Shown here: piece after piece, positions 600-64,000 of the stretch | How positions within the stretch are numbered: position 1 is the stretch's first letter | Layout of the letters: every line of letters begins with the position of its first letter | Source of the DNA: Morinoia aosen | Taxonomy: Eukaryota > Arthropoda > Malacostraca > Amphipoda > Talitridae | Length of the DNA: 64,000 nucleotides | Reading direction: 5' to 3' | Assembly (NCBI GenBank): GCA_030386875.1 | Contig: CM059560.1 | Coordinates: forward strand, 22,996,683-23,060,682 | Made by a program: the position numbers and the translations under genes | Notes under the pieces: generated by a model | The model's input: only the letters and a program-made list of their open reading frames with translations | What the model was told of the DNA's origin: nothing | The model's database searches: none

Positions 600-1291
600 C
601 ACTCAATGGGATACAGCTCTTGTACCTATAAGTATTTGCATTATCGGGGGAAAAATGTGAAGTCCAGAGCTAAAGGTTAGTTAAGCCAATCTTCTGTTGG
701 AATAAGGTATTTTTTCTTTGTTTCGTGGCAGACCGTCGTTTTTAGGTTCACTGGTGTTCGTTTTCAGCACGTATTCTTCAAGTTTGATCCCTCCAATCGA
801 CATAACTATTGTATCTATGGGAACTAACACTCCCAGGGGAAAAATGTGTGAGGGTTCAAGCCGAGAGCTAGGTATGCCTTTTTGTTGAAATAATATTTTT
901 TCTTATGTTGAGGACCACCTTTTTTCGGTTCACTGCTGTCCTGTTTTTCAACATCTACCACTTTATTCTTCAACTTTTAGCTTGTTTCATAAACTTCTTT
1001 CTCAACATACTGTTTCTATGTCCCTTGTGCATAGATTCCGCGTTCCCTAATCTCCATAGAAAATGATGTCTTCCTCCATCCTCTCTCCGGAACGCTTTTT
1101 CTTAGCGCTTAAGGAGGTTAAACTAACATCTAATCTTCAAGTTTCATCTTTTTTCATGAACCATTTATTTTCCGTTTTCCATATGCCGGGTGCAAGGACA
1201 CACTGTAGATAAATTCCTTTAATTCTATACGAAATAGCGCCTTCCGTTTTTGTGCTTTGGGAGGCTTGAATTCAATTATAATCTAATCTAG
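600..1291 (+). repeat. Old SINE-like copy, split by a younger copy
   Basis: The 5' part (about 600-785) and the 3' part (1135-1291) align to the family consensus: head, GGTTCACTG block, then GGAGGCTT and an ATCTAATCTA tail. A younger copy interrupts it at 786-1134. It belongs to the older subfamily, with extra sequence near 1188 (GGGTGCAAGGACACAC) where young copies have only a few bases. Confidence 0.75.
786..1134 (+). repeat. SINE-like copy inserted into a sister copy
   Basis: Full-length member of the family. It is flanked by a perfect 10 bp direct repeat, CTTCAAGTTT (776-785 and 1135-1144). This sequence belongs to the older copy, so the event is an insertion of one family member into another. 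Its 3' end is AACATCTAAT. Confidence 0.85.
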
Positions 1292-2013
1292 TCAAGAATT
1301 TCAGCTTTGTAGTTTTTGCTCAAGTTTGTACCAGTGTACGGTACGAAGTACTGAAGACCGGAGAAACAGTTTACAGTGTGTAGCTCTGTGATGAATTTGT
1401 TCCGCCAGTATATTGTGTGTCACCGCCTCAGCACATAGGTGTCGCCACAGTAGAATTCAATGCTTGCCGTAAATCTCTCTTCATCCGTCCGTATTAACGT
1501 ACGATTATAGCTTGGAGGTTTTACTCGAGTTTCCTATGTACGAGTGTAATAAATTTTAATGTTTAGCATGAGCTGCACGTAAGCTTGTTTCCAGCCCATC
1601 TTTATTGGATGGCTGCTGCTGTATCTCGCGTTTTGTTGCAGTGTGTAGCACCAGTTCCGTGTGTAGCAGATGCACTTTATGGGCCACGGTGTACTGGTGG
1701 TAGCGTAGATACGCAACTCCCCTCGCAGCAGCACCGTTCATCCCATGCTGTGCTTCAGAAGAGGCGCGCGTGTAGGGCGCAATTTATTGAGGGGATTAAA
1801 TGCCATTAGGGAGCCTAATTTAGGGAATTGGTTGCGGTGGGAGCGAGACGAGCTCTTCGTCACTGCCACCGGGTAACTTAGTGTGGTCCACCCGAGCCTG
1901 CCTGGCCGTTCATTTTTTTCTTTCCTTTCTCCTTCCTGCTCACGTTGTTATACTAAACCTTGATTTTTTTTCTGGAGTAGCTCGGTTATAGGTTAAGGGC
2001 CTTCATGGATGTT
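1292..2013. other. Unassigned sequence
   Basis: No gene or repeat recognised. Overlapping short ORFs on both strands at 1534-1809 are GC-richer than the surroundings but have no family signature. Confidence 0.4.
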
Positions 2014-2028
2014 TTCTATTCAACCTCT

Positions 2029-2396
2029 CCCCTCAGGGGGATACAATTAATGTATCTATGGGAATTGGCGCTCCCAGGGGGATAATGTGTGGGCCCGAGC
2101 TAAAGGTTAGGTAGGCTTTCTTTTTTGTTAAAATAGAATAGGATTTTGTTTTGTTACGGACCATCTTTTTTCGGTTCACTGCTGTCCTGTTTTTTCAGCA
2201 CCTACTACTTTCTTCTTCAACTTTGACCTTGTTTCATGAACTTCTTTCTCATCTTACTGTTTCTATGCCTTTTCTGCATAGATTCCACGTTCCCTTAACT
2301 CCATACTAAATGGTGCCTTCTTCCTTCCTCTCTTTGGATCTCATTTGTTGAGGATAGGGAGGCTTAAACTAACTAATAATCTAATCTAATCTAATC
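2029..2396 (+). repeat. SINE-like copy with 15 bp target duplication (reference copy)
   Basis: This is the clearest copy for defining the element ends. It is flanked by a perfect 15 bp direct repeat, TTCTATTCAACCTCT, at 2014-2028 and 2397-2411. The copy therefore starts with CCCCTCAGGGGG and ends with tandem TAATC units. A short-repeat tail and long, variable target duplications are typical of target-primed reverse transcription, that is, of SINEs moved by a LINE partner. I did not recognise a tRNA, 7SL or 5S head. The only B-box-like match is GGTTCACTGC, with one deviation from GWTCRANNC. Confidence 0.9.
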
Positions 2397-2411
2397 TTCT
2401 ATTCAACCTCT

Positions 2412-3460: not shown

Positions 3461-3815
3461 CCTCTTTGGAGTACGACTATTGTATCTAGGAATTAGTGCT
3501 CGTGTGGAGGGAGAACGTGAGGTCCCGAGCTAAGCTTAGTCAGGCATTCCCTATGCTGAAATACAATAGGCTTATTGTGATGTTCCAGATCTTTTTGTTT
3601 TGTTTTATGCTCTTCAATTTTCATCTACGGCGTTTTTCTTCAACCTATCTTATCTTGATATATGAAATTTTTTATTTTTATGTACAGAATGTGGGGGACA
3701 CACCCTATGCATAAATTCTCCATTCCCTTAATTCTTTACTAAATGACACCTTCCTCCTTCCTCATTCGGAAATTTTTTGATCGCGGTAACTGCAACAAAC
3801 TTATGATGTGATGTA
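3461..3815 (+). repeat. Diverged SINE-like copy
   Basis: It aligns to the family from the TACGACTATTGTATCTAGG head through AGGTCCCGAGCTAAG to a degraded 3' end. It carries the older-subfamily segment GTGGGGGACACACC near 3690. No target duplication is recognisable. Confidence 0.75.
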
Positions 3816-5335: not shown

Positions 5336-6022
5336 CCTCTCAGGGATACCCTTAAATTAGGTAAATGTAACTATTGTATTTGTGGGAATATGTGTTCCTA
5401 AGGGAAACAAGTGAGGTCCCATGCTGATGGTTATGTAGGTTTTGTTGGTAAAATAAGTTTTGGGAGATACAACTACTGCATCTATGGGAATTAGCGCTCC
5501 CAGGGGGACACTGTGAGGACCCGAGCTAAAGGTTAGGTAGGCTTTCTTGTTGTTGTAATAGAATAGTTTTTTTTTTGTTTTGTTAAAGACCATCTTTTTT
5601 CGGTTCACTGCTGTCCTGTTTTTCAGCACCTACTACTTTTTTCTTCAACTTTGGTCTTGTTTCATAATCTTCTTTCAAAACTTACTGTTTCTATGCCCTT
5701 TCTGCGTAGATTCCACGTTTCCTTAACTCCATATTAAATGGTGCCTTCCTCCTTCCTTTCTTTGGATCGTATTTGTTGCTGCGGGTAGGGAGGCTAAAAC
5801 TAACGTCTAACGAATCAATGAAATAAGTTTTTTGTTCTGTTACGAACTGTTTTTTTTTCGGTTGATTAACGTCTTTGTTAGTGCCTGCTACTTTCTTGAG
5901 AGGGGACACATTTTGTGCGGAAATTCCCGTTCCTTCACTTCCATAATAAATAGTCTCTCACTCCTTTATTTCTTTGAAACGACTTTGTTGTGGTTAGAGA
6001 GGCCTCTGCTGAATATCTAATC
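5336..6022 (+). repeat. Old SINE-like copy, split by a younger copy
   Basis: The head (5336-5461) and the remaining 3' part (5821-6022, ending GAATATCTAATCT) form one diverged copy. It is interrupted by a full-length younger copy at 5462-5820. Confidence 0.7.
5462..5820 (+). repeat. SINE-like copy nested in a sister copy
   Basis: It is flanked by the direct repeat AAATAAGTTTT (5451-5461 and 5821-5831), which belongs to the host copy. The start GGGAGATACAACTAC lacks the first few bases of the family head, so the copy is slightly 5'-shortened. Confidence 0.8.
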
Positions 6023-6635
6023 TGTAACTTCCTTCGTTACCTTTGACCTTACTTCGTAAACATTTTTAATCTTGCTGTCCCCTCAGCTGCATTACACTTT
6101 TGTAACTGTGGGAATTAGTATTCCAAGAGAGAAAATGTGTGGTCCCAAACTGAGAGTTAAGTATGCCTACTTTTTGATGAAATAAAATGGTTTCATACTT
6201 TAAGGACAATTTTTTTTTGGTTCACTGCTGTCTTGTTTCTCAGCACCTACTGCTTTCTTCTTCAAAATTTGAAAAACCAATGATGAGCTTTTTGTATCAT
6301 CTTGATTGGAAATAATCTTTTTTTTCTTTCGTAACTTTTATCTTGTCTCATCAACTTCTTTCTCAACAGTATCTCCATTCTAAATGGTGCCTTCCTCAAC
6401 TAGGAGGAAGGTAAATTAGGATCGTCTTTGTTGCAAATAAGGAGTCTTAAACTAACATCTGATCAAATCTTTTAATCTTGCAGTTTCCATGCGCAGGGTG
6501 TACGGACATAAACATTATGCATAGATTCCCCTTTACCTGAATCCTATACTAAATGGTGCCTTCTTCCTTCTCGTGGGAACACATTTGTTGTTGCCAGGGA
6601 GGCTTTCAACTAATGTAATATAGCCTCTCAAGGAA
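6023..6635 (+). repeat. Old SINE-like copy, 5'-truncated and split
   Basis: The segment 6023-6078 matches the family's middle, and 6485-6635 matches its 3' third, including the older-subfamily insert GCGCAGGGTGTACGGACA. The two parts are separated by an inserted copy at 6079-6469. Confidence 0.65.
6079..6469 (+). repeat. SINE-like copy nested in a sister copy, rearranged
   Basis: It starts with CCCCTCAGC and is flanked by near-identical 15 bp repeats, TTTTAATCTTGCTGT (6064-6078) and TTTTAATCTTGCAGT (6470-6484). The middle, around 6270-6345, contains about 60 bp of unrelated sequence. The region before the terminal block is shortened, so this copy has been rearranged since insertion. Confidence 0.7.
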
Positions 6636-6867: not shown

Positions 6868-7183
6868 GAAAATTGGTGCCCCAGAGGGAAGATACAAGCT
6901 CCCGAGCTGAAAATAAGGCAGGTTTTCCTTTTTTAAAGTAGAGTAAGTTTCATGTTTTGCTGCGGACCAAGTTTTTTTTCGGTTCACTGCTGTCGTTTCT
7001 TCAGCGCTTATTGTACAATTTTATCTTGTTTCTTGAGATTTTTCCAATCACGCTGTTTCTGTACGCAGGGCATGGGGGGACACACCTTATGCGTAGATTC
7101 TCTGTTTCTTTAATTCTATGCTAATGCGTGCCTTCTTCCTTCCTCCCTTTTAGAGGACACTCGTTGGAGTTAGATAAGCTGTA
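6868..7183 (+). repeat. Diverged, 5'-shortened SINE-like copy
   Basis: It aligns from the GCCCCAGAGGGA part of the head to a decayed 3' end. It has the older-subfamily segment GCAGGGCATGGGGGGACACACC near 7064. Its 3' end abuts the next, younger copy. Confidence 0.65.
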
Positions 7184-7199
7184 TTTAAGAGCGAGGAAA

Positions 7200-7569
7200 C
7201 CCCTCAGGGGGATACAACTATTGTATCTACGGGAATTTGCGCTCCCAGGGGAAAAATGTGAGGGCCCGAGCTGAGAGTTACGTAGGTAGGTCTTCTTTTT
7301 GTTGAAATAAAATGTTTTTTTGTTATGTTAAGGACCATCTTTTTTCGGTTCACTACTTTCCTGTTTTTCAGCACCTCTGACTTTCTTCTTCAACTTTTAT
7401 CTTATTTCACTATCTTCTTTCTCAACTTACTGTTTCTATGCCCCTTCAGCATAGATTCCTCATTTTCTTATCTCCATACTAAATGGTTCCTTCCTCCTTC
7501 CTCTCTTCGATACGCTCTATTTATGTAGCGGTTAGGGAGGCTTAAACTAACTTATAATCTTATAATCAT
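7200..7569 (+). repeat. SINE-like copy with 13 bp target duplication
   Basis: Full length from CCCCTCAGGGGG to a TATAATCTTATAATCAT tail. It is flanked by the perfect repeat AAGAGCGAGGAAA at 7187-7199 and 7570-7582. Confidence 0.9.
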
Positions 7570-7582
7570 AAGAGCGAGGAAA

Positions 7583-8479: not shown

Positions 8480-8826
8480 CCCCTCAGGGGGATACAACTA
8501 TTGTATCTATGGGAATTAGCGCTCCCAGGGGAATATGTAAGGTTCTGTGCTAAAGGTTAAAGTACGCCTTAATTTTGTTGAAATAGAAAAGTTTTTTGTT
8601 TTATTACGGACAATTTTTTCGGTTCACTGCTGTCCTGTTTTTCAGCACCTCTGACTTTCTTCTTCAACTTTTTTCTTGTTTCATGAACTTCTTTATTAGC
8701 CTTCTGTTTCTATGCACCTTGTGCATGGATTCCACATTTCCTTAACTCCATACTAAATGGTGCCTTAATCCTGCCTCTCTTTGAACATCTTTGTCGTGGT
8801 AAACGGAGGCTAAAACTCTTATAATC
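8480..8826 (+). repeat. SINE-like copy with 14 bp target duplication
   Basis: Full length. It is flanked by AATCCCTTCCTGTC (8466-8479) and AATCCCTTCCTATC (8827-8840). Its 3' half, from TTAGCCTTCTGTTTC to ACTCTTATAATC, is nearly identical to the inner part of the mosaic copy at 54597-55025, so both come from a recent common source. Confidence 0.9.
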
Positions 8827-11398: not shown

Positions 11399-11756
11399 CC
11401 CTTAGACTGGATACAACTCTCGTATCTAGGGAAATGAGCATTCCCACGAGGAAGATGCGAGGCCCTGAGCTGTAGGTTACATTTGTTTAAATACAACAGA
11501 TTTTCAATTTTGTTATGGACAATTTTTGGATTCACTGCTGTTCGGTTTTTCATCACTTGATAATTTTTTCTTCAACTTTTATCTTGTGTCATAAATTTAT
11601 TTCAGTGTTGCTTTTTCTATGCGCAGGGTGTGGGGGACACACATTGTGTATAAATGTTCTACTCTTTTAATTTCATTCTTAATGGTACCTTCCTTCTTCC
11701 TTACTGGGCAACACTTGTGGTTAGGGAGGCATGTATATTAACTAATTAAATCTAAT
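11399..11756 (+). repeat. Diverged SINE-like copy (older subfamily)
   Basis: Nearly full length, with a degraded head (GGATACAACTCTCGTATC) and the older-subfamily insert GCAGGGTGTGGGGGACACAC near 11625. It ends AATTAAATCTAATTT. No clear target duplication remains. Confidence 0.8.
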
Positions 11757-15641: not shown

Positions 15642-18600
15642 TAAGGTGGAGTTTATTTGAGGGTAAAAAAAGTTGACATTTCTAAGCTCTCATGCTCTGT
15701 AACAAGTCCACTTTGCCTAGAAACGTCACAGCCAAAATTATATATTTAAAAAATAATACTTAGAGAGGTAGTACAGAGCCCTTGAAAATTATGAATTTCA
15801 ATAAAAAACCTACTATTTAGAAATCTCGGGTGTGCTGCTCAAAGACAGATTTCACAGTCACCACTCCGCTCATTGTGGCTGGGTTTGAGCCAACCAATCT
15901 GCCTTTCTGGCGTCGAGGATGGTGCGCCGATGTCCTGCTACCGCTTGAAGAAGAAGTAATAACTGCTCTTTATTCTTTCACTTTATTGAACTGTTGGATA
16001 AGAGCTATCTTCCGCTCCGCATGGTCGTTAACCACTCGAAGAACCATCAATTGCTCTTCGGCAGCTCGGAAACTTTGGTTCACTTCCCAAGAGGATAGAT
16101 CCGCGTCCAGAAAATCTGTGGAAAGACTAAGCTTTTGAAAGAGGCACACAGTGTACGGCAAAGCAAATTAATATAGATGGCTGTTAGCTATGGTCTTGAG
16201 ATCGTAGTCGCAGCGCTTTTCGGGCTTCTCATCTTCATCGACTTCATCACTCCTCATGCTTATCAGAAATCACTTGTTTACTGACAAACTCACTTCTTCA
16301 TCGAATAGCAATAAGCCGACGTTCGCATCCAAGAGACCACAAGTGGCCTTTCAGTTTTTCGGACGGGGCCGCAGAAATGTCAGAATTTGTAGCACTGTAG
16401 TTGAGGAGAGCTTTCATCAGGTTAAGTCGCGGCAAGGAGCTTGGACAGCACCAGGAGCGGTGAACCAGCATTCCACATAAATGAGAACAACAAAGTAGCA
16501 CATCTCCCGTAGGCCTTTCTCTTCCCTTGCTGCCAACTTGAACTTACGCCGGAATTGTCAGACTTTGAAGAAAGCTTTTGACATCCAACAGGCATAATGC
16601 ATTGGGCCACGAGGGACGAAAGTGAACTCCTTGGGAGGGTTCAGCTCCAATAAACAAGATCGTGAGCTCTCGTAGCTCCCGAAAGTTATCTCGAGGTTGA
16701 TGTGATGTTGACTGGCTGTTGGTAAATGTGAGGATGCGCTCGCTTTCTCTGAAATCCGAGGTCGAACCACATCATCTGTCAATCCAGAATTACAGGTAGT
16801 TCAGCCTGGAATCCCAGTCAGCCTGGAATCTCTTGAATAGCAGTATATCGGGCCTGGATGAAACACCCATGCAAGTTTGAATGCAGGCGCAAGAATATGC
16901 TCCATTATATGATGCCGACATGCAAAGTGGAGGAGGTCTCGCCCTAGCTTCTGTTCAATGAAAACACAAGCACCTCCTCGCATTCCAGTGTTAGCTGCCG
17001 TGGTATCGAAACTTAGAGCTGCAAGCCCCCTTGTCATTGACCCCCACTCAGTTAGAGCGTCGACAACAGCTTGGGCATGACTCTCCTCGGCCCCGAAGGG
17101 ATCTTGGGGACTCCTAGAAGCTGACTGACCCCTTGTCCAGAGACCAAGATGGCCAAACGATACACTCGCGAACTCGAGGTCAGGTCTGCAACAAGCTTTC
17201 CATCCCAGTGCACAGTCAGAGGAATGTTGGCCGAAAACTTCTCATGCAGACTTCTTACAAAAGTTGCCCTGGTTTGGATTTTCTCTCTCCTTATTGAATC
17301 CCTGTTAATATTGAACTCAGCTCCTGACGCTCCTGATCGCTTCAGTGATTATAATGGTGGCTTTCCTGTCTGATGCTTGGGTCCGGGCAACAGCAGCAGC
17401 GAAAGTCGGTGTAATGGCGTTTTTCGTGCCTCGAGCCCTTTTTCGGACTGGCAAATTTTGGTTACCTTTGAACACAACTTGATCATCACTGTCTGTGCAT
17501 TCTACTTGGCTATCACTTCCACTGCTGTTTGAGGACAGCACAGCTTTCGAAGTAGAGGCCTGGCACTCCATCAATGACATAAGTTCCTTTTCTCCCCAAG
17601 TTACTTCACCTCGGCTCTTTTCTCCTTCTTTGCCAAAACTAAATCTTGGCATCCCAAGGTCCCACGACGCCCTCTCTCTCGCTGGTGAGGTGAAAATGCC
17701 TGTCCTCTTCAATTTTGATTTTCTACAATGCTTCTGCATGAGCAATATCGAAGAAGTTAACCAGTTCGTCTTTAAATGCATCCTGCTTGCAGGTTTGAGT
17801 TGGAGTCTACCTGTTCTGGAGACGCTTCAGGTGTTGCATTTCTGGGAACAGAGTTTCCAATTTCTCTTTAGACTGCTGTTCTGCTTTAACAGGGATTCGG
17901 GCTTTTCCCACCCAGATGGCTTGAACTCGACGAACAGTCTCAATGGATGCCTCACGAATCGTTTTCTTTTCCTTGTTATGAAGGTTAAAAAATACACCAA
18001 CCACTTCACGATTAGATGGAACTTTGGTACTGCCATTTTAATCAGGTAGATTGCCCGACGAGAAAAATTTCAATTTACGCTCGTGTAGCCATGGAGGGAA
18101 GCAACTAAGTATTAGCTTGATATCTATTTCAATGTTCATTATTAATATACCTAAAGAGAGAAAAAAGAAATAATTAACAAAAAACAAAAAATGCGATTCT
18201 TATATACTAAAATATAACTTTTTTTAAAATAAAAATTCAAAAAAGTGTACCACGGGTTTGTAGAGCATTAAATTCTGCTTTTTGTGATACCAAACTCATG
18301 TACTCCACAACTCAAGGAGCCTTAAATTAACAAGTGAGCATTTTGGAGTGCGAAAAACGGAGTGTACAGGAGAGTGGCAGCAACAAAGCAACTACGATAG
18401 CGTGCGGAGATCGTCACTTGCGAACACCCTGTTTACGACGTGCCTCATAGCACACTAAGCTACTGTCTTTTTTCGCACTGTCTGACACACAGGCTATGCT
18501 AGGTTGCCAGTACAACCAAATAACCATCTCGAATACACGTGTATTTTGTAAAAATTGTTAAATTTTACAAGCGAAGGTATCTTAAAAAATGAAAATGCCT

Positions 18601-19265: not shown

Positions 19266-20097
19266 CAATGAAGAAAAATTATTCACCATTTAAAAAAGCT
19301 TCCAATCATCGAAGAGATTGTGTACTATCTCAAATCTTTGAATAAGTTTCTCAAGTATATGAGATATTTAAAAACTCAATGCAGATTCTTTCCCGATGGC
19401 TTGGGCTTATGTTTTTAAAAAATTTGGGAAGTCTACTCTTTTTCTAGAAAGTGTAAAAATTCGGAAAGCAGTGTGCGTAAAGGACATTTTAAAAATAAAT
19501 TGAAAAATTGGTATCATTTTTCTATTGAAGGGTGCTGTTCGCCCCATCCAACTAGAGGGGGCGATAAGTTACACTGGCAATGAGATAGAGCAGTTGTAGA
19601 GACAAAAACCTGGACTTCATTATCAACGAAAATTGACCTCTCTCTTCATCGGATATCAATTCCTTGGATATCTTTTTAATCTAAAAACAAATGCATGTAA
19701 GCTGTGACACGAAAGTAGTTCAAAACTTAGACAAAGCTTCTATCCGTACAACCATCGACATCGATCTTAAGTGACATAGGTGGCGTGTAGCGACTCGGAG
19801 CAATTATATTGAATGATTTAATTGTTCATGTTTTGTTTATTCAGTTATTGAAAATAAAAATTTTGTATTGATAAATAATTAAGAATTACTGTCATTTTGC
19901 TCAGTCACAGTGTTTATGTTTCATCCGATATATTGGTGGCCAGACTAGCAGATCGTAGGATTACGGAAGGTTTTTGTATTTGGGACTATGAATTGAAGAG
20001 AAAATGCTATAAATCTGTGTTTTTACCTGTTACCTGATGTTTGCTCACTGTAGGTTACTCGACTATGCTTTCTGTCCTATTTCTACTGTTTTCTTAA
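19266..20097. other. Unassigned AT-rich sequence
   Basis: No gene. A small GCCCC...GGGGC inverted repeat near 19541-19563 is the only local structure noticed. Confidence 0.4.
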
Positions 20098-20445
20098 AGG
20101 TATTTAATTATTTCATCTATGAGAATTAGCGCTGCCAGGAACAAAACGTGAGGTCCCAATCAGAAAGTGTGGCAGGCCTTCTTGTCGTTGAAATAAAATA
20201 GTTTTTCTGATTTTTTACGCACATTTATTTTTCGGTTCACTACTGCTATTTTCAGCACCTGTTTTTCACATCTTAAATTTTTTTTTTCATTAATTTTTTT
20301 TTCAGTCTTGTTTCTATGTGCAAGAAATCCGGTATAGGATCACTATTGTGAATAGATTGCCCGTTCCCATATTGCCATGCGGAATGGAGCCTTCCTCTTT
20401 CCTTTCTTCAGAATGCATATTATATGATTAGGGAGGCCAACAATT
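20098..20445 (+). repeat. Diverged SINE-like copy
   Basis: It aligns to the family from a decayed head (TTTCATCTATGAGAATTAGCG) to ATTAGGGAGGCCAAC. The position of the older-subfamily insert holds a different sequence, GCAAGAAATCCGGTATAGG. Confidence 0.75.
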
Positions 20446-20639
20446 ATTAATACAATTGCAGCTGCTCCGTGATTTCGGTAATTCAATCTATTTAATTCTT
20501 TCTGTTTTGTGCTTTCCTTGGTTTGTTGAGCCAATCAGTTTTATTGTATCGACTTGGCAATTTATGCTTAGTGATAATTTAAAATATGAAATGTCTCGCA
20601 ATTTTTTTATACCAGCGGCATATAGTTTTGCTTTTTACG

Positions 20640-21005
20640 CCCCTCAGGGGTATACAACTATTGTATCTATGGGAATTGGCGCTCCCAGGGGGACTATGTG
20701 AGGGCCTGAGCTAAAGGTCAGGTAGGCTTCCTTTTTGTTGTAATAAAATAGGTTTTTGTTTTGTTACGGACCATCTTTTTTCGGTTCACTGCTGTCCTGT
20801 TTTTCAGCACCTACTACTTTCTTCTTCAACTTTTTTCTTGTTTCATGAACTTCTTTCCTAGCTTACTGTTTCTGTGCACTTTGTGCATAGATTCCGCGTT
20901 CCCTCAACTCCATACTAAATGGTGCCTTCCTCTTTCCTCTTTCGGAACATCTTTGTCGTGGTTAAGGGAGGCTAAAACTTTCTTATATAATAATAATAAT
21001 AATAA
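20640..21005 (+). repeat. SINE-like copy with (ATA)n tail and 13 bp target duplication
   Basis: Full length, starting CCCCTCAGGGG and ending in a run of ATA/AAT units instead of TAATC. It is flanked by the perfect repeat TTTGCTTTTTACG (20627-20639 and 21006-21018). Together with the copy at 49861-50212 it defines a young subfamily with TTTGTTGTAATAAAATAGG in the middle. Confidence 0.9.
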
Positions 21006-43388: not shown

Positions 43389-44350
43389 TTTTTTCCAGCT
43401 GCTCAGGGGTTGAGTTGAAAGACTATTTTTTCGACATAAAATATTAAGGACGGAATGATGGTAAATTAAGGTTGTGCTTCTCGCAAATGAGGTATGATTC
43501 TGTTTCTGTCACACGCGGTCTTAATTTCAAAATACCTTTATTTGGAACGTAAGATGTTAACCAAATATATCAGTAATTATGTTTCGGTGCTAGTGGAGTA
43601 AAGAGAAAGCGAAAGCATGCACATTATAATTATTATTGTTAGTTAATTTACAATTCCCTCGTCACAAAAGCGATCTCAGAGCAAAAAGATGGGATCATTT
43701 AGCATGGATTGAAAAAACGGAATCTACTAACAAGATGTGTCCTAATACAGAGTGTTCAATGTAAAATTGCAACTAATAATTCCATAACTGCTGAAGCAAA
43801 AAGAAATGACGAACAGGCGTTGCAGTCAAGTCAATTTCACGTTGAGATATGAACATGCACAATGCTGGCAAATTTGCTGCCGCAGCTGAGATATGGACGG
43901 CAGTGCTGAATATGAGATGACTATATTCCTCTTCCATCGAGCTCGAGGTCCAGCGACTTGGAGCGTCAAGCTTTAAAAGCGCACAAGAAATAATATCGGT
44001 GAACCAAAGGCCATAAACGTACTTGCATAGCTTTCCTGATGAGGGAGTCCCCACTTACAAGCAGGAACAGCGCCTTGGCTTTGATAGTGAGCGGCTGCTT
44101 CAGGTTTATGCGAGCAGGGATGCCTTTCTCTTGTTCTTCAATGGAATCTGTACACTCTCAATTCAGCGCATTTATTGCCTTATATTGTTAAGGGTTGAAA
44201 AGTTCTATCCCATGAAGAGTTGAGACGCCTAGTAAGCGGACAGTAATGCATTGCCTTGAATATTTGAACCCATAATTCCGGCCGTTTCTGAATAATTTGA
44301 CGCTATGGGAGCATTTGAATGACTTTTAGTTTACAAGGGAAGGACGTTCT
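43389..44350. other. Unassigned; possible one-sided transposon end
   Basis: The sequence CAGAGTGTTCAATGTAAAAT near 43748 resembles the outer end of mariner-like elements seen elsewhere in the window. No matching opposite end was found, and the minus-strand ORF (44054-43773) shows no clear motif. Confidence 0.3.
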
Positions 44351-44363: not shown

Positions 44364-44719
44364 CCTCTCAGGGGGATGCAACTATTATATCTATGGGAAT
44401 TAGCGCTCCAGGGGGAAAATGTGTGAGGGCCCGAGCTGAGAGTGAGGTAGGCTTTCTCTTTGTTGAAATAAAAAAGTTTTCGTCGTGTTAAGGACCACCT
44501 TTTCTCGGTTCACTGTTGTCCTGTTTTTCAGCACTTACAACTTTTTTCTATAACTTTTATCTTGTTTCGTGACTTCTTTCTCACATACTGTTTCTATGCC
44601 CCCTTCCGCATAGATTCCGCGTTCACTTATCTCCATACTAAATTGAACCTTCCTCCCTTTCTTCGAAACGCTCTTTTTTTTAGCGGTTAGGGAGGCTCAG
44701 ACTAAATTTTAATCTAATC
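44364..44719 (+). repeat. SINE-like copy with 13 bp target duplication
   Basis: Full length from CCTCTCAGGGGG to TTTTAATCTAATC. It is flanked by TAACCTTTCTCTG (44351-44363) and TAACCTTTATTTG (44720-44732), identical at 11 of 13 positions. Confidence 0.85.
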
Positions 44720-45160: not shown

Positions 45161-45433
45161 AAGATATTGGTTGCTCTGAATCTGAGATTCTAAAGAGAAT
45201 TATTATATTGGGATAAATATTTTTTGTCGTTTGTCATGTACGTAGATTCGACCATTTCTTGATGTAGGCACAACTAAGCGGTAAATTACCAGTAATAAAG
45301 TTATTGGTTGCTTTGAATCTGAGTTTCTAATGAGAATTATTATATGGGGCTAAATATTTTCTGTCGTTTGTCATGTACGTAGATTCGACCATTTATTGAT
45401 GTACGCACAATTAGGCGGTAAATTACCAGTAAT
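45161..45433. repeat. Two-copy tandem duplication, 137 bp unit
   Basis: Copy one runs from about 45161 to 45297 and copy two from about 45298 to 45433. They share long blocks such as GTCGTTTGTCATGTACGTAG and GCGGTAAATTACCAGTAAT. They differ at only about ten positions, so the duplication is fairly recent. Confidence 0.85.
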
Positions 45434-47457
45434 ATTGGAGTTTCTTGATTTTCAGATTATGGGAAACAATTAATACATCAGTAAATATTTGAATGCTTGT
45501 TTTCTAGGAGGATGGGTTGAAAGGGATTATTGTTTAGCTCATTTGACGAATGAATAGTTAACAATGTGTGTAGGATCCTCAACTTCATTTGAAGAGATGC
45601 CTACCCGCCGTCTGTCCAACTGGGGAAACGAATCGCCCTTTAGAATATTCACTACAGTTAACTGCGTAATTACTTGTTGCAAAATACTGGTGAACGTTTA
45701 AAGTTCAGAGGGTCCAAAATTTACAATTCCTATTTGTCATCTTCGCTCTCGGAGTATGCTGGCCTTCCGTAAAATTGGTCGCTTGGACGAGCATTTGTAT
45801 TAACTTCGTGTGTCTAATTTCTTCTTAGATTTCTTCCCTTGGTAAATTTCTTACTATTGTTAATACATTTTGAACGAATGCGACCATTTTTTTGGGCTTG
45901 TTACAAAAAAGCGTAAGATATGAGGTGAATCAATGTCACGTATTAGCTGAGCAGTGTCCTTTCTCTCAGAGATAGACAATGAGGCTAATTTTGCTATCAA
46001 TTCTCGAGATATATCAGGAATTTTGTACACGCCGGAGGCACATAAATTTCCGACTAGTTTTTTGCCACAAAACTTGTGACGGCTGTTAACCTTAAAAAAT
46101 TCTTACGGCCTGCCTGAACATTTTATGCTCAGATCTATTACTTGCGTCTGAGAGCGGCTGTTGCAAATAAGCATTTGAGGCATCTTATGGACGGCCCAAT
46201 TTGGCTTGCAATAAAATTTGTCATGCAATATTTGGAAGTCTTACTCGGGGTATTACAAACGAAAACAAAATTAAATCCTTTTAGAACTCGTACAGCTTCA
46301 AACCATGTAAGTACTGTAAAAATAGAGCTTACTAGCCTTATTTTCGCGCGGTTATCCTGAGGTACTAGCATAGAAACAATACTAGCCCTCTAATTAATAG
46401 AAAATGTGCTGCATTTCAGTAGTTACCAACCACTTGATGTAAGTATTTAACGAGGTGAAAGCAATATTTTAGAGGATGATCGGATATCAGTAGTGGCTAC
46501 ATATTAGTACTGCATTTTTGAATTGTTGCGAATGTGGTCATAAACGGCGTCACCAGGATCCAGTTGCGTAAGTCATATCTTTGATCATATCTGAGTATCT
46601 CAAGAATATATTCTGCGCGCGTGTTTCAGTGATTTATTTTACTTGTGGTGCATGCTAGTATGCAGATGCATCTCATTCTCTATATTTCGCCGGAATTTTT
46701 TGAAGAAAACTCAGTCTCATAAACACAGTTTTAGCGTAGACGACGCGCAAAATCAGCGATGATCGTGAATTTTATGTTAAATTATTTCATCATTTGTGCC
46801 TTTTATTTCAATTGATAATGCTATGGTTGATAGAATTGCCGTAATTTTAAAAAGTTATTTGTCCTTGGAGTTTAGTTATTTTCATTTGATTACAGTACAC
46901 ATAAGTACATTTATGTAAAGGTAAAAGTTCCCGAATGTTCATTGCTGACCAATGACCTGATTACAAAAGTCGTTAAGCTGCTGATTGCAAGGCTATAACC
47001 GTTCAGTGAGGCTCTATTTCGCTTGTAACTTTGTTTTCGGTCGCTTAGCAGCGGTGTGTCTTTCATTACTATTGACCCGTTATTTTATACCGTCAGCAAT
47101 CTCAATCTAGCAGGGTAGGGCATGCTTCTCAGGGAACTGGGTTACACCAGCGCCATTACATACGTGACACTTGCGCCTCATCATATCCGAGCGACAAAAT
47201 CCACTTAGCTATCATCAGTCTGAGATTCTGTTAGCGTTTTAAAGTGGTGTCTTGCATGCGCGATTCACTTTACCTCTTGTAATAGGTATCGAACCCAATG
47301 AAATTCTGATGTAAATTTAGAGCTAATTGAACACTGTCTAAACCTTTCTGATCATTTAGTGACCATTAATTGATCGTGTCAAGTTTGTGGAAGACACCAT
47401 CTGCATGGTATTCAAGCCAGTATATTTTAATTATTGTTATTGTTTTCCCTTATAAAT
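45434..47457. other. Unassigned sequence
   Basis: No supported gene, RNA or known repeat. Confidence 0.4.
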
Positions 47458-47800
47458 TACAGTCCCCCCAGGAAAATAATACTATTTTATCAATGGGAAT
47501 TAGCGCTCCTAAGGAGAATATGTGACATCCCGAGCCTAGAGTTAGGTAGCCTTTTTTTGTTGAAATAATGTTTTTCGTTATGTTAAGGACCATCTTTTTT
47601 TGTCGGTTCACTGCTGTCTTGTTTTTCAGCATTTGCTACTTTCTTCTTCTTCTTCAACTCTTATCTTTCTTCATGAACTTTTTCTTAACTTTGTTTCTAT
47701 GCACCTTCAGCATAGATTCTACGTTCCTTCAACTTCTTGCTAAATAGCGCATTCCTCCATACTCTTTGGAACACCTTTTTTGCAGTCAGGGAGGCTTAAC
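47458..47800 (+). repeat. SINE-like copy
   Basis: It starts CAGTCCCCCCAGG and aligns to GTCAGGGAGGCTTAACAC. Its tail is lost. No clear target duplication. Confidence 0.8.
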
Positions 47801-49860: not shown

Positions 49861-50173
49861 AGGTAATTAGCGCTCCCAGGGGGACTATGTGAGGGCCCGC
49901 GCTAAAGGTTAGGTAGGCTTCCTTTTGTTGTAATAAAATAGGTTTTTGTTTTGTTACGGACCGTCTTTTTTCGGTTCACTGCTGTCCTGTTTTTCAGCAC
50001 CTACTACTTTCTTCTTCAACTTTTTTCTTGTTTCATGAACTTCTTTCCTAGCTTACTGTTTCTGTGCACCTTGTGCATAGATTCTGCGTTCCCTTAACTC
50101 CATACTAAATGGTGCCTTCCTCTTTCCTCTCTTGGAACATCTTTGTCGTGGTTAAGGGAGGCTAAAACTTTCT

Positions 50174-50212
<39 letters not shown>
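49861..50212 (+). repeat. SINE-like copy, 5'-shortened, with (ATA)n tail and 10 bp target duplication
   Basis: It starts AGGTAATTAGCGCTCCC, missing roughly the first 35 bases of the head. It ends in a run of about 12 AAT units and is flanked by AATTATAATC (49851-49860 and 50213-50222). It is nearly identical to the copy at 20640-21005. It interrupts the hAT transposase just after the TADIRTSPSRDS block. Confidence 0.9.
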
Positions 50213-51607: not shown

Positions 51608-52075
51608 ATGTATCGTTCACAGAAAGAGGCCCTAAAATTTCTCGACTACGTAAATGGATATCACGCCAAGATAAATTTCACAATAGAAACTGAGCAGAAT
51701 GATAAATTGCCATTTTTAGACTTTCTCGTAAAGAAAACCAATTCAACGTTCGCCACCTCTGTTTATAGAAAACCTACATTTACGAGATTATGTACCAATT
51801 TCTTCAGTTGCATTTACATGGGTTATATTAAAACAAGTGTCACTACATTATTGCATAGAGCATACCGTATTTCAAATTCATATAAAATATTTCATGACGA
51901 AGTGAAATATATCACAAAGTTACTTGTGCAAAATAAATACCCTTTATCTTTAATTAACAATCTGGTTAAAAAGTTTTTAGACAAAAAACTTTCCCTTCCG
52001 TGTACAATTCTGACTGCACCAAAGCAAAAAGTGGTCGTCGAGCTCTCTTTCTTGGGCTATCTTTCAAGGAGATGA
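51608..52075 (+). pseudogene. Penelope-like reverse transcriptase C-terminal remnant
   Basis: The 155-codon frame includes EALKFLDYVNGYHAKINFTI, then LPFLDFLVKK, then ATSVYRKPTFTRL and LLHRAYRI. The order LPFLD-V, S-V-Y-R-K-P-T-F-T, then L-x-HRA is characteristic of the segment after the catalytic domain in Penelope-like reverse transcriptases. The YADD-containing catalytic part is absent, so the fragment is inactive. Confidence 0.85.
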
Positions 52076-52186
52076 GAAAGGATCTTTTATCTCTGATACA
52101 CTCTCATTTTCCTTTCATTGACGTGTTACCATTACAAATATAGACATTGTTTTAAAATAAGTTCATTTTTCAATAGGAAATAGCGT

Positions 52187-52594
52187 TTGGAAGAGTGCCT
52201 GAGAAATGGTTGTGTCTACTTGTATAAATGTGATTGCTGCCTGCAGTCCTATGTTGGAAGTACCACACTCCAGCAATTGATTCGTCACAGCCAACACTCT
52301 GGTATCTCCCATGGAATCGGCCGTCTATACTCATCTCCCTCCCAGTCAGCCATCAGAGATCATTGCCATAGTTCAAACCACCCTTTCAAAAGTTCCAATT
52401 TCTCCATACTTTGTAGAACTGCTGAGGAATTTGACCATAGAATTTTGGAATCATTGTTCATTTTTACCCATAAACCTCAGCCAAATAATGATCAAAGTGC
52501 GATGAAATTAAATATTGCCCCAACTGTGCAAATAAGAGTGTTTTGGAATGTGTGTGTGTTTTTTGTGAGTGTTTTGTCTGTGTATATGCAGTAA
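52187..52594 (+). pseudogene. Penelope-like GIY-YIG endonuclease remnant
   Basis: The frame reads NGCVYLYKCDCCLQSYVGST, with VYLY and YVG standing for the GIY-YIG motif. SAIRDHCHSSNHPF and FDHRILESLFIFTHKPQPN follow, the latter with the conserved ILES glutamate, and the frame ends near NIA. It lies downstream of the reverse transcriptase remnant, in the normal order, but in a different frame after about 110 bp of broken linker. Confidence 0.85.
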
Positions 52595-54596: not shown

Positions 54597-55025
54597 CCCC
54601 TCAGGGGGATACAGGTATTGTATCTATGGGATTTAGCGCTCCCAGGGGAACCATGTGAGGGCCCGAGCTAAAGGTTAGGTAGGCTTCTTTTTTGTTGTAA
54701 TAAAATAGGTTTTTGTTTTGTTACGGACCATCTTTTTTCGGTTCACTGCTGTCCTGTTTTTCAGCACCTACTACTTTCTTCTTCAACTTTTTTCTTGTTT
54801 CATGAACTTCTTTGTTAGCCTTCTGTTTCTATGCACCTTGTGCATGGATTCCACATTTCCTTAACTCCATACTAAATGGTGCCTTAATCCTGCCTCTCTT
54901 TGAACATCTTTGTCGTGGTAAACGGAGGCTAAAACTCTTATAATCAAAATGGGGCCTTCCTCTTTTCTGTCTTGGAACATCTTTGTCGTGGTTAAGGGAG
55001 GCTAAAACTTTCTTATATATTATAC
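54597..55025 (+). repeat. Mosaic SINE-like copy with two 3' ends and 11 bp target duplication
   Basis: The whole unit is flanked by TTGCAATTAAT (54586-54596) and TTACAATTAAT (55026-55036). Its 5' half matches the (ATA)-tailed subfamily (20640 copy). From about 54810 to 54946 it matches the 8480 copy through to its ACTCTTATAATC tail. From 54950 it returns to the 3' end of the first subfamily and ends TTTCTTATATATTA. Confidence 0.85.
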
Positions 55026-55937: not shown

Positions 55938-56296
55938 CCCCTCAGGGGGATACAACTATTGTATCTATGGGAATTAGCGCTCCCAGGGAAAAAATGTGAG
56001 GGCCCGAGCTGAGAGTTAGGTAGGCCTTCTTTTTGTGGAAATAAAAGTTTTTTTGTTATGTTAAGGACCACCTTTTTTCGGTTCACTGCTGTCCTGTTTT
56101 TCAGCATCTCTCACTTTCTTCTTCAACTTTTATCTTATTTCATGAACTTCTTTCTCATCTTACTGTTTCTATGCCCCTTCAGCATTGATTCCTCATTTTC
56201 TTATCTCCATACTAAATGGTGCCTTCCTCCTTCCTCTCTTCGATACGCTCTATTTTTGTAGCGGTTAGGGAGGCTTAAACTAACTTATAATCTAAT
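55938..56296 (+). repeat. SINE-like copy with 14 bp target duplication
   Basis: Full length from CCCCTCAGGGGG to AACTTATAATCTAAT. It is flanked by a perfect CTTTACTTGGGTCG at 55924-55937 and 56297-56310. It is very similar to the copy at 7200-7569. Confidence 0.9.
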
Positions 56297-57861: not shown

Positions 57862-57865
<4 letters not shown>

Positions 57866-58156: not shown

Positions 58157-58491
58157 CCCCTCGGGAGATACAATTATTGTATCTATGAGAATTAGCACTT
58201 CCTGGAGGAAAATGAGATTAGGTTAGGTAACAAGGTTAGGTAGGCCTTCTTTTTGTTGAAGTTAAATGTTTTTTATGTTATCACTTTTTTCGGTCCACTG
58301 CTATAATTTTTTTCAGCCCTAGTAATATCTTCTTCAACTTGTATCTTGTTTCATAAACTTCTTTCTCAGCTTATTGTTTCTTTCCCCATTTTGCGTAGCC
58401 TTTTTTTCATACTAAATGGTGCATTCCTCCTTCTCTTCGAAACGCTTTTTTTTTTAGCAGTTAGGGAGGTTAAAACTAACATCTGATCTAT
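58157..58491 (+). repeat. SINE-like copy with 13 bp target duplication
   Basis: It starts CCCCTCGGGAG and ends ACTAACATCTGATCTAT. It is flanked by GCTTATGAAAGTA (58144-58156 and 58492-58504). It has a small internal duplication of the GGTTAGGTA motif. Confidence 0.85.
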
Positions 58492-58504
58492 GCTTATGAA
58501 AGTA

Positions 58505-60149
58505 GTAAAACCTGCAGGGAATGAATAGCTGTACTTCACGCTTCCTTTGTTCGTTTCCCTTGCTTTTCAACCCTTGAATCTCAGCAATACAGTTGATGTG
58601 AGGCTTTATTTTGTTCATAAGGCTTTTTGAATGGTGCTATTCTTCAAGTGTTCTCATTTATGTTTGGTTTTAGTCATATTTCGATGGCTGTGGATTGCTG
58701 CTTCTTGATTCCTGATCTGCTGCTTGTACATATGTATTTACGAAATATTACATTAGACTTACATACGTTTCGTTTTCAAACCCATCATGTTGGATTATAA
58801 CATGTCGCGCTATTTTGAAGGCAAAATTCACAATTGTTAATTATTTTTTGTTGTTCTTATATCACCGTAACCTTTTGGTTTATTTCCATCTCTTCAATTT
58901 TGTGCGGTTTTATTCTCTCGTGATGTATGCTTTAGTTGCGCAATAGCTCTGAAATTAGCCGCAGTTTTTGAAGTAATTTTTTTTCTACTTCGTTTTTGTT
59001 ATCCTTCGCTGCACACGACGGCGACGTTGACGCAGATTTTTGATGATCTTCATTAACGCTACGTCATCTTCGGAGCTTCACGAATGATGAAACGTTCGAA
59101 AATGAAGGAACTTAATTTGCATTCCCAAGAATGATGTGACCTTTCTAAAATAGTCGTTGCTGCAATCTGTTTTGTTTTAGCATTCAAGCGTTCATGTTAT
59201 TATCGACTTTCTTGGACCTATTTTGTATTGTGACACGGACATGTTGTGTAGAGAAGAATTTTTCAGGGAGACAGTAGAGAAAAAGTTGGTATCGTTTGTT
59301 CATGGTGAAACCGGATGCAGCGAAATGAGCGCTCAAGCGGAGGTGCTTTCCTCTATTATGGTAGCAGTTGAATTTAGAATCTTGTTTTGATTTTATTGTG
59401 TTGCATATTCGGGACCATTCTGATTTTCAACTCGATTATTATGTATTTTTCTTACTGAAGTCTGTGCGCATTTTATCTTTCTTCCGATGTTACATTCAAT
59501 CCCTCTTTTGTCTGTGGAATCTCTAAAATGGGTGAATATTTAAAATATTGGGACTGTAAGAGCAGTTAGCAATTCCCATACGGTCTGTCACTGTAAACCT
59601 CTCTGCGTCTCCCACTAAATGGCCCAATTGAAGGTGTGCATTACTAATTTTATAACATTGGGTCAATAGGATGGAGAATGACCCGCCTCCTACCATTTGC
59701 TGCTACTGAGCTTTGAAGAACTTTGGAATCAATCCTGTGAGGTTAACTTGTATGTGTCATCCATACATTTGGGGTTATACGATAAAACATGGTTTCTAGA
59801 GCGTATATTTTGAAGAAGTAGATTCTAAAACTACTAACTCCTTTCAGTCAGATTACCTTGATGTCTTTTGTATCCCTTCCGTTCCGATGAGCATTCTGAG
59901 CTACCTGCAGTAGATTTAATAGCCCCGGGCGTGATAACCTATTGTGAGCTTTAGCGTGGAGTGCCCTTTGAGAAGGCAATAGGTTTAGGTTAGTTAGGGT
60001 TGTGTGTCCTGTGCTATGGGGGCTGCAGGCGCCTTAAAGTTGGATACTGTTAAATTACCTCAGTTATGAGTAAGCCTTCGGGACTTCTAGTTTTAATGTC
60101 CACTTTGCTTCTTTCCGTTTTCATGCTTTCTTTGCTTTTCTCTTTTTTT
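58505..60149. other. Unassigned sequence
   Basis: No supported gene. ATGAAACGTTCGAAAATGAA near 59089 recalls the ends of Penelope-like elements but lacks a recognisable hammerhead core. Confidence 0.35.
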
Positions 60150-60298
60150 AACTTGGTGTATCTTCGTGCAGGGTATTTCTTAACACATCTCCTGCATATA
60201 TTTCCCGTTCTCTGAAGTTGATACTGAATGGTCACCTTCTCTTTTCTCTCTTGGGATCGCCCTTTGGTATGGCTAGGGAGTCTTAAACTAATGTAACA
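60150..60298 (+). repeat. Highly diverged SINE-like 3' fragment
   Basis: It aligns only to the 3' third: CTGCATATATTTCCCGTTC, then ACTGAATGGTCACCTTC, and finally GGGAGTCTTAAACTAATG. The 5' part, if present, is too decayed to trace. Confidence 0.6.
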
Positions 60299-60745: not shown

Positions 60746-60876
60746 TTACATCATCCACTTACTCATTGTGCTGTTGATGTTGAACTTCTCGGTCACTTGG
60801 ATTCGCTTACACCTTTGATTCGCACTTCTTCTTCATGTTTTTCTATGATCTCACGCTTTAATTCAATCGACATCAT
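60746..60876 (-). pseudogene. pogo/Tigger-like (CENP-B N-terminal type) transposase remnant
   Basis: On the minus strand MMSIELKREIIEKHEEEVRI begins at 60876. After a frameshift RIQVTEKFNINSTMSKWMM follows, ending at a stop (60748-60746). The K-R-E-I-I-E-K-H-E-x-x-V-R-I start, followed by the F-N-x-N-S-T-x-S-K-W helix, matches the N-terminal helix-turn-helix of pogo/Tigger (jerky-like, CENP-B-related) transposases. The DDE domain is missing. TGGTACCTCGAGATATGAA near 60453 may be the edge of the element. Confidence 0.65.
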
Positions 60877-61079
60877 CTTCAATAGGCAAAAAGCACAGAA
60901 CTCGTACACAACTTATCAAAAATACTTCCTCAGCGAGACAAACGAGCGCGCTCACTGAGGCGCGGGAAACCGGGTCGTGTGCAGCCCGCCGACCTGTTGA
61001 CCTGGTTGCTCGTATCTCAATTTTCTCGTATTTCGAAGCAAAAAATCGCTGGATCGACGACTTTTCTCTCAAAAATCTC

Positions 61080-63696
61080 TTAGGTTAGGGCACTTGTGTG
61101 GCAAGCTACCATTGTACATTGAACATAAATCCTCACTGAACAGTTGTCCTGTGACCACTATGTCACGAGAAGAACGGGTCCCTTCACCTCCTTGTTAACA
61201 TTTCATTAACAAGATCAGGTTCTCGGAATAGAGGAATGGCACACCTCCAGGTACATTCCTAAACACACAAAATCAAGAAAATAATCAACATTACAGTACA
61301 TATACTAAAACAAACGGTACTCACCGATGACAGCTGACCCACTTACTCAACGCATTTTCTGAGCGCCCTGAATTGCTGGAAGGCCTATTACGAGGGGATG
61401 TATTAATACTGCAGAGGTTATCGGAGAGATTTTATGCTCACGGCCAACACATGACAACCTGAACAAACTACCCTTCTCAAGATCCTAACACGACTGCCAG
61501 AATTACAAACAAAATTCGAGCGTCATAGCGTCATGATAACACTACCCTAATAATACGGGTTGGCCAACCCTCTGCGCATCAATTGAATTGAGACACATGA
61601 CAAGATGCAACCTATTTTTTTATAACGTTTCCAACAGCACAAAGCACGGTCATAGCTTCAAATCACATGCGTATTCTCAGGCACCGCTTCAGTTCCGATT
61701 CCCTGAATTATTCACAGTTCAGTACAGTATCTTTTGATGATTGTATGACAGCGTCTCGTAAATTTTCTTCAAGTTGAAATTGACTGTGAAGAACTGCCAA
61801 GAGAGGAGTAAAAAGAGAGACCGCCCTCCTGCAAAGATACAAACATTTAACCCATTACTTTGATTGCAAAAATGTGCTCATTTAAACATTTAGTGTTAAC
61901 TTTGAATGACAGTACTTTACATCACATATTTTTTGAACAGCATATCTTGTACAACTAGAAATAACTCCTCACCCGCCCAACAACGTCTACACTTTATTTT
62001 CTGATTCTAATGTCTCGACCCCGATGGTCGTGCGTGAGACTTCTCTTCTCTGAAAATGGAAAGTGTTCACATTAAATTCTAACCAGTACAATTACACTGT
62101 GAAGCAGGCTATTTGTTTTCCACGTATTTTTTACAGAGTGTATTTTTCAGTGCACGCTTCGCCCTACCGAACCTTGTCGGACGGCTCGCCTAAACTCACT
62201 AACTCTTTGGTCTTGTGTGCTGTGAGGGCTGCCCTCTTTCATTCGTGAACGCCTACAATTTCTCTGATTGGCGGTTCTCCACTTCGAAAATCTTTCCAAG
62301 GGTGCTCTGACCATTACATTGGCTGTCAGCCCTCTGATGAGAACGTATAGCCGACTCCGCCCTCTTTCAGGAACACTAGCGATCTTTTTCCATGAAATTC
62401 TGGTCTAAATTTTTCCACTATGTTTTTCTAATGCCTGGTTGTTTCGTATCCTGCTGTGTCAACAATCTTGCCGCTTCGAGTGTCGCTCGTCCCCAACCCT
62501 CAGCTTGAGTGCTCTATACATCCTTGTCACCCTTGTGGTTGACTGTTTGGGGCGCCTATGCCTCTCCAAAAGGTCTTAGCTAATCATAACAAGTTCATGT
62601 TTCTCACGTCTTCAACACAGGACCTCTTTGTGTGGCTGTAAGTTCTCCCCGTCGAATGTGGTTTAAGGAAACAGACTCTCTTGTCCAAGAAAGGCTCACA
62701 CACAAAATTCCTTCCAAGCACAACACCAACACAAAATGTAGCACACAACTCCAGCACATGTGAAAACAAGCCACCAGGCACACATGTTAAGCGATCAGTC
62801 ACACATGTTAAGCGACACGCTCGTGCTGTTGGAATACGCAAGTACTACAATATTCTAAAATTTACAAAACACAAGAGCACAAATCAGTTTACCGAAAAAA
62901 AAGGACACAAACCAGTTAAAAATTTCCCAAAATTAATGTTTCTCTACAACTATTGATTTATAATTTTCTTTTTATTCTACACAATGCTCACGATGAAACA
63001 CTGCCGCCGACCCTGTGTGTTCCAGTTTCCTGAGTGGAGTGAATTTTCACCTTGTAGTTTTAAATACTTCAGCTCGCTTGTTTAGGTGCGTATTTGTACG
63101 TTCATTTTGTTATGCGGTTGGTGTGAATATTCCACCGATGGACATCATTGTTATGAGTACGGTTTTTGCAGAACGTTAGATACCATTGTAATGAGTTCGT
63201 TTCAAGTGTTATATCTTCCTTTCTATTCCAAGGTCATATTTTGATTATCGTCATCGCGACCTTTTTCATGTCACTTCAGTATATTTCATTAACCATTCGC
63301 AAGATAAATAAGTCATTCGCAATTGATATCAAATCATCAAATATCTTTACCATATTCTCAAGGTCGGATAGGACTTCTCTATGTCCTCATCCCGCCAACC
63401 GTCATGTCTTCTCTTTATTAAGTACGTAGTAGGTTGCCCCCAGTCTCTAACGAAACAAATTATGTTGAGTATACAGATACTTATTCGTATGGTAAGGTAA
63501 TTATTATTAAGGTAGCGTTCGAATTATTATCAACTCTTATAATGTCATCGACAGCTCATAACTCATCCTTAACCGAAATTAAATACGAGCCCCATTGATG
63601 TTTTATTTGCTTAAAGGAAAGAATCTTAAAACTACCTAGCGCAACAGAGAAAATTCTAAAATGCCAAAATGAACCTAATGCATCTAAGATAATCCT
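61080..63696. other. Unassigned sequence
   Basis: No supported gene or known transposon. A short two-unit tandem repeat (CACACATGTTAAGCGA, period 20) lies at about 62780-62817. Confidence 0.4.
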
Positions 63697-64000
63697 CCCT
63701 CAGGTGGATACAACTATTGTATTTATTCGAATTAGCGCACCCAGGGGGAGTATGTGAGGTCACGAACTATGGGCTAGGTAGGCCTTCCTTTTATTGGTAT
63801 AGAAAAGGCTTTTTGTTTTGTTACGGACCATATTTCTCGGTTCACTGCTGTCTTGTTTTTCAGCACCTACGTTCTTCTTCAACTTTTATCTTGTTTCATG
63901 AACTTCTTTCTTAGCTTTCTGGTTTTATGCTCCTTGTGCGTGAATTCCGCGTTCCCTTTAACGCCCGACTAAATGGTGCCTTTATTCTTCCTCTCTTTGA
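63697..64000 (+). repeat. SINE-like copy running off the window
   Basis: It starts CCCTCAGGTGG and aligns to the family as far as CTTCCTCTCTTTGA at the window edge. The tail and any right-hand target duplication lie outside. Confidence 0.85.

Follow-up and report, generated by a model that had tools for sequence, protein, structure and literature searches.

Do short retroposons land, or survive, in just one orientation in transcribed DNA? The question is raised by a stretch of 64,000 nucleotides in the amphipod Morinoia aosen (contig CM059560.1, C5 hereafter; C5:22996683-23060682, the window), in which the copies of one family resembling short interspersed elements (SINEs) read almost without exception in the same direction. 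Whether an orientation bias of intronic elements stems from insertion or from selection is an old question, and it is hard to answer where the biases lie near 40:60. Here the ratio is about 97:3 in one gene, it holds at all copy ages, it is not common to the other repeats of the locus and one-way domains are found elsewhere, and such a family should allow the causes to be separated directly within a single species. The explanation that we prefer, to which as a whole we give a probability of about 0.5, is that the window lies in an intron of a gene for p85, the regulatory subunit of phosphoinositide 3-kinase (PI3K), and that the copies inserted in its sense orientation by a process coupled to transcription.

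The window and 100 kb on each side of it (genome of 1.99 Gb in 29 contigs) were searched on both strands with an nhmmer profile of about 358 positions, which was first built from four copies named in an earlier note on this DNA and then rebuilt from the window matches. The profile gave 33 fragments in the window, which were merged into 32 copies, 31 on the forward strand and one on the reverse strand. The earlier note had reported about 27 copies, all forward; the family is real, its number was somewhat low, and one weak minus match has to be added, a remnant of 102 bp and 21 bits at 43636-43737 (model positions 237-352). The several minus-strand copies that the note had named as counter-evidence did not appear in this sensitive search, which gave just that remnant. 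Some clusters hold copies abutting head-to-tail (e.g. 5360-6617 and 37258-37841), and isolated copies share the same polarity. We therefore confirm the one-orientation observation, which is larger than first noted.

Domain searches place the window in a p85 gene on the forward strand. A predicted SH3 exon is found 31 kb ahead of the window (C5:22965440, window position -31242), and the SH2-iSH2-SH2 exons lie 297 kb past the window end, the gene reaching to at least C5:23359145 (cSH2 frame, window position 362463). The gene thus spans about 394 kb from the SH3 exon to the last SH2 exon, and the elements lie sense to it. The score of the SH3 exon is the weakest link of this model: the SH3-like forward frame, taken from the reading-frame list, reaches 14.9 bits in Pfam against a cut-off of 30, and its best solved match, p85-beta, is weak (E 0.06). 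Its strand, place and splice site nevertheless argue for an exon: an ATG is present, and the exon is closed by a CAG|GTAAAA donor at C5:22965641. The presence of SH2 exons on the C5 forward strand beyond the one-way domain was set as a test before the search, and they were then found: a genome-wide SH2 search (41 matches) includes C5:23357415-23357636 and C5:23358548-23358664, both forward. The DNA at this locus codes on one strand for nSH2, iSH2, cSH2 and the RhoGAP-like BH domain, of which just the end was seen. The nSH2 matches solved p85-alpha chains with E 2.7e-36, PI3K_P85_iSH2 exceeds its cut-off in two successive reading frames, and a tblastn comparison of the locus with a human sequence gave 3e-61. 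From -31 to +164 kb relative to the window start, window included, the search showed no p85 exon, but it did not pick up the SH3 exon either, so weakly kept exons could escape it. The window is probably intronic throughout. An intron of a forward-strand gene had been suggested in the earlier note, and this part is borne out; of the causes listed with it (selection, insertion bias and replication direction), none reaches better than even odds. We regard the p85 gene and the copy polarity as described here as very probable.

The polarity extends over the 195 kb of the gene that were read (-31 to +164 kb), where 91 of 94 merged copies are sense. If orientation were random, the binomial probability of three or fewer minus copies among these 94 would be 7e-24; the earlier note had called 27 of 27 extremely unlikely on that condition. 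The three antisense copies are at -27.3, -24.2 and +43.7 kb; on the upstream side, the last antisense matches fall 24 to 27 kb from the window start. Copies spanning more than 250 model positions in the gene are sense in 65 of 66 cases, the exception having an internal deletion. All 51 fragments in the 100 kb downstream of the window are forward, as are the eight matches (8/8) in 3-kb samples taken further on at C5 23.20, 23.26 and 23.34 Mb; two further samples of this size, at 23.45 and 23.60 Mb, contained no copy, and the T/A skew is reversed there. Upstream of the gene (69 kb) there are six sense and three antisense copies (Fisher p 0.008 versus in-gene), and two of the six, at -55.1 and -46.9 kb, score identically and are seemingly a single segment that was duplicated. 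Bits per position served as a proxy of age for fragments of at least 100 positions, and from the youngest to the oldest class the sense share was 19/20, 20/20, 31/31 and 18/20 (69/71 for the three older classes together). The T/A ratio is 0.99 upstream and 1.22 in the gene.

The element is about 355 bp long and T-rich, and it is short, dispersed and of high copy number, as SINEs are: one of its 22-mers has 27,037 exact matches genome-wide. Its 3' tails, read from the sequence, consist of TAATC/AATCT or AAT units, and 17 of the 46 near-full copies in the window and flanks have target duplications of 10-16 bp, with differing sequences, at a score of at least 9, a score reached by 0 of 230 permuted flank pairs. 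Tail and duplications are likewise those of a SINE. Identity to the consensus ranges from 67% to 92% (59 alignments above 200 bp), and the closest relatives of the youngest copy, at 98%, are on other contigs. The duplications, this spread of identity and the relatives on other contigs indicate that the copies do not form a local array. The earlier reading of independent insertions rather than one tandem array is upheld by the distinct duplications, the differing ages and subfamilies and these relatives; its count of twelve target duplications in the window was not reproduced, since seven of the 16 near-full window copies reach the score of 9. As to the origin of the head, ARAGORN found no tRNA, and Rfam gave nothing for the window at gathering score, nor for one copy at E<=1. 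The consensus body contains stretches of five or six T, which would end transcription by RNA polymerase III (Pol III). This makes a Pol III head doubtful and SINE-like retroposon the more cautious name; the family appears to be a short non-LTR (long terminal repeat) retroposon, SINE-like by size, dispersal, tail and duplications. The sense strand of the consensus bears the best acceptor-like site and an AATAAA, by scoring matrices; the acceptor-like site is kept in 40/74 and AATAAA in 20/71 sense copies. Within model positions 141-200, a stretch resembling a splice acceptor (CACTGCTGTCCTGTTTTTCAG) is one of the best-preserved parts of the copies.

All copies named in the following were identified by nhmmer and are forward. 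Target duplications accompany the near-full copy at 792-1135 (TCTTCAAGTTTGATC, 1 mismatch), the full copies at 2030-2384 (TTCTATTCAACCTCT), 7201-7562 (TAAGAGCGAGGAAA), 8481-8826 (AATCCCTTCCTGTCC, 1 mismatch) and 55939-56295 (TCTTTACTTGGGTCG), the copy at 58159-58489 (GCTTATGAAAGTA) and the copy of the youngest subfamily at 20641-20993 (TTTGCTTTTTACG), which is the one with 98% identity to copies on other contigs. The copies at 44366-44717 and 54598-54947 are also full, that at 5462-5811 is near full, and those at 3462-3811 and 38551-38899 are old. Further copies are at 6868-7180, 11408-11747, 20097-20452, 28380-28700, 37258-37628, 43075-43388, 47465-47799, 49862-50183 and 63697-64000, the last extending 45 bases beyond the window end. 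Partial copies are at 600-789 (model 1-197, 127 bits), 1133-1286, 5360-5456, 5868-6006, 6080-6267, 6323-6467, 6470-6617, 34611-34814, 37632-37841 (directly behind the copy at 37258-37628), 54945-55018 and 60144-60296.

According to the explanation that we prefer, insertions of the retroposon would have accumulated over a long time, about a hundred of them in the half of the gene covered here, nearly all in sense orientation. In target-primed reverse transcription, a sense insertion means that the first nick and the start of the cDNA are on the template strand of the gene, and we propose that the machinery of the element gains access to this strand during transcription. Copy density is raised, not lowered, in the gene, with 94 copies per 195 kb against 9 per 69 kb upstream, none in five arbitrarily chosen 8-kb pieces (40 kb) and two in 14.4 kb of channel introns; this speaks for insertion over the purging of antisense copies, since the removal of half the insertions would lower it. 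The bias is also as strong in the youngest copies, unlike what purging leads one to expect, and this again favors insertion, although 20 fragments leave room. That insertion rather than purging is the main cause comes close to an even call. A more specific version is offered tentatively: the element's endonuclease, or else a lesion of host origin, would open up the template strand where genes are active, new copies would almost always be sense, and the copies would be a permanent, genome-wide record of germline transcription direction.

The strongest alternative is purifying selection, in which both orientations insert and the purine-rich, exon-like or transcript-disturbing antisense copies are removed from introns, while the sense copies resemble ordinary T-rich intron sequence and are kept. 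Such orientation-biased purging of intronic elements has been documented (PMC3446317, PMC3088655). Purines make up 61% of the antisense strand of our consensus, which also contains GAAG and AAGAA motifs and a single GTAAGT. Furthermore, the other repeats of the p85 locus are of mixed orientation, so some property of this element matters; this contrast was shown inside the p85 locus alone. A self-comparison with the element masked, in which 54 same-strand tandem-array pairs below 6.7 kb were left out, gave 22 pairs at 6.7 kb and beyond; 14 are inverted, as are 5 of the 10 pairs more than 20 kb apart. In several cases the members of an inverted pair lie close together and could be two arms of a single element. 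The best-defined of these repeats, an 850-bp repeat that resembles a miniature inverted-repeat transposable element (a DNA transposon), has TTTAACCCGTC inverted ends and 93-94% identity, and occurs in both orientations, at window positions 23610-24460 and, downstream, at window-relative 64264-65114 and 91784-92639 (inverted). Purging would nevertheless demand harm from nearly every antisense insertion across about 390 kb, and it is on the sense strand that the best acceptor-like site and AATAAA are found. In repeat-free gene sequence the strand ratios of two motifs are slightly below the expectation from base skew, as purging would have it (GTGAGT 0.97 vs 1.30, AGGA 0.64 vs 0.71), whereas GTAAGT, GAAG and GAAGAA follow the skew. 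Altogether, purging is a possible cause that we would not call probable. The antisense GTAAGT donor was tried as the harmful feature and rejected: the clearest antisense copy lacks model positions 218-287, yet among 76 sense copies just 11 retain the undamaged motif (as ACTTAC), so its absence from the antisense exceptions is uninformative.

Reported effects of replication on insertion are slight. Replication direction could nevertheless act if the element used the strand exposed at the fork, for example the lagging-strand template, and orientation would then mark replicon arms and not genes. Domains of tens of kb to 1.2 Mb are of replicon size, and human L1 endonuclease activity has reportedly been connected with replication (work cited in PMC10030826). 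In p85, however, the uninterrupted one-way stretch starts about 8 kb after the SH3 exon and is still seen 14 kb before the SH2 exons, and the copies upstream of the gene are mixed, 6:3. We consider this explanation unlikely.

An asymmetry of target sequence has still less in its favor. If the machinery needed targets that are T-rich on the top strand, a gene with a T-rich sense strand (T/A 1.22) would receive sense copies; 25 target sites are T-rich around the nick, and on other contigs T exceeds A in the flanks of 7/7 copies, read along the element's sense strand, in three of them by less than 0.03. Yet a weight matrix from the 25 sites predicts 62.7% forward copies, against 97% seen, which contradicts target composition as the sole cause, and part of the T excess may be decayed copies, so that this account is very improbable. 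Local amplification, by which tandem or segmental duplication or insertion of copies into each other's tails would pass on one orientation, is hardly credible: several copies abut head-to-tail, the upstream pair at -55.1 and -46.9 kb looks like one duplicated segment and just 11 of 42 in-gene copies are nearer to the best of seven distant copies (chosen for likeness to one copy) than to the best in-gene copy, but the near-full copies with their own target duplications, the youngest copy with its nearest relatives on other contigs and the isolated copies of the same polarity all stand against it.

Does the polarity follow genes elsewhere in the genome? Two exact motifs of the element are distributed over the strands as 13,400/13,637 and 5,655/5,875, without overall bias. 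The earlier note had held that a bias found genome-wide irrespective of genes would count against its claim; the overall strand bias is absent, while one-way domains, putatively within genes, recur on contig C1. Among the matches listed (100 places per motif, all on C1), adjacent places agree in orientation in 68/99 and 73/99 cases for the two motifs. In 20,000 shuffles at most 67 and 70 were reached, and in a separate run 7 of 100,000 reached 68 for the first motif. The stretch listed for the second motif alone gave 54/65 agreeing pairs, and the union of both motifs gave 133/185, against a shuffle maximum of 118. Agreement in the union declines with spacing, from about 0.87-0.90 within 20 kb to 0.69 at 20-50 kb and 0.50 at 400 kb-1 Mb. 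The longest run among the matches listed comprises 22 reverse-strand places over C1:13.04-14.25 Mb (1.2 Mb). For genes of known strand, six channel genes were picked from an ion-channel search (79 matches) and 2.4 kb of one intron was read in each; one of the six pieces holds copies, both of them (2/2) in gene sense. Generality beyond p85 is inferred from the C1 domains and these two copies; we find it rather likely that one-way domains generally follow transcription. If they do, the family could mark the strand of unannotated giant genes, and the far exons of the 394-kb p85 gene, predicted before they were found, are an example of this use.

Known systems resemble this locus in part. In unistrand piRNA (Piwi-interacting RNA) clusters, insertions from many element families are antisense to the transcript. 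One of these clusters, flamenco (PMC10643416), reportedly extends over a few hundred kb and carries its insertions in one direction. Our locus differs in that one family is sense, the other repeats are mixed and the locus is a protein-coding gene. For mouse intronic variants, PMC3446317 gives sense shares of 41.6% for SINEs, 41.7% for long interspersed elements (LINEs) and 32.6% for endogenous retroviruses. The two orientations relative to the gene are thus unequal there as here (91/94 in p85, 2/2 elsewhere), but the mouse excess is moderate and antisense, whereas here it is sense and reaches 91/94 in one gene, in a long and nearly unbroken domain. Human SINEs show a sense excess at 20-200 bp from exons, ascribed in PMC3088655 to cryptic acceptors in antisense Alus. 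Both cases are a sense excess of intronic SINEs; the human effect is reported close to exons, and here it extends over hundreds of kb with the best acceptor-like site on the sense strand. The L1 insertion preferences in the 2019 work of Flasch and of Sultana are reportedly linked to replication and are said to be weak. They would share with our case a strand preference arising at target-primed reverse transcription, although here the polarity is nearly complete. A literature search, which most subscription journals were outside the reach of, found no retroposon with near-complete sense polarity.

Several points weigh against sense insertion coupled to transcription. No retroposon known to us prefers one strand so completely when it inserts, and strand-selective nicking is a conjecture. 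The gene also holds, 27 kb upstream of the window, an antisense copy that is fairly young (two fragments totalling 251 bits), and the youngest age class has just 20 members. Features of the chromatin that have nothing to do with strand might account for the higher density in the gene, and the repeats that contrast with the element may be mostly DNA transposons. Outside p85, the 1.2-Mb run on C1 would call for a single gene, or a series of genes in the same direction, of that length, and the link to genes consists of two copies in one of six channel pieces. T exceeds A on the gene sense strand in just three of the six pieces, and we rejected this skew as a general mark of sense. Finally, a genome-wide test with a donor motif (gap 300-330, without a decoy, the distance from motif to element differing between the orientations) left the link to genes unsupported, with 16 sense and 42 antisense places. 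When 30 antisense places of identical length were dropped, 16 sense and 12 antisense places remained; several of these 16 and two of these 12 are repeated sites. In 30 of the 42 antisense places AGGTAAGT stands at one identical distance from the antisense element core (length 351), and this constancy points to an unrecognised composite repeat.

Other features were noted in the locus. The gene contains frames in both directions that we take to be of LINE type, forward at about -19 to -13.6 kb and reverse at about -8.1 to -5.9 kb. Two forward frames at window positions 51608-52594 presumably belong to a Penelope-like element with a GIY-YIG-type end; Pfam gave nothing above cut-off on these frames. 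Two long reverse frames at 16801-17826 resemble a decayed mobile element, without a Pfam match. At 45161-45434 a unit of 137 bp is duplicated in tandem with 91% matches. The downstream flank holds a 1.3-kb minisatellite (104177-105577), open in several frames and with MELSA/TELSA repeats on one strand, and a direct repeat of 1,299 bp (140412-141710 and 144477-145775), whose copies are 100% identical, about 4 kb apart, and could be very young LTRs or an assembly duplication. Elsewhere in the assembly, ion-channel exon sets at C7:21588792-21651683 and C7:22276688-22339570 recur at an offset of about 688 kb with equal or nearly equal scores, and equal-score SH2 pairs are also present on C2, C8 and C9. 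These repeated exon sets would be recent large duplications or haplotypes retained in the assembly.

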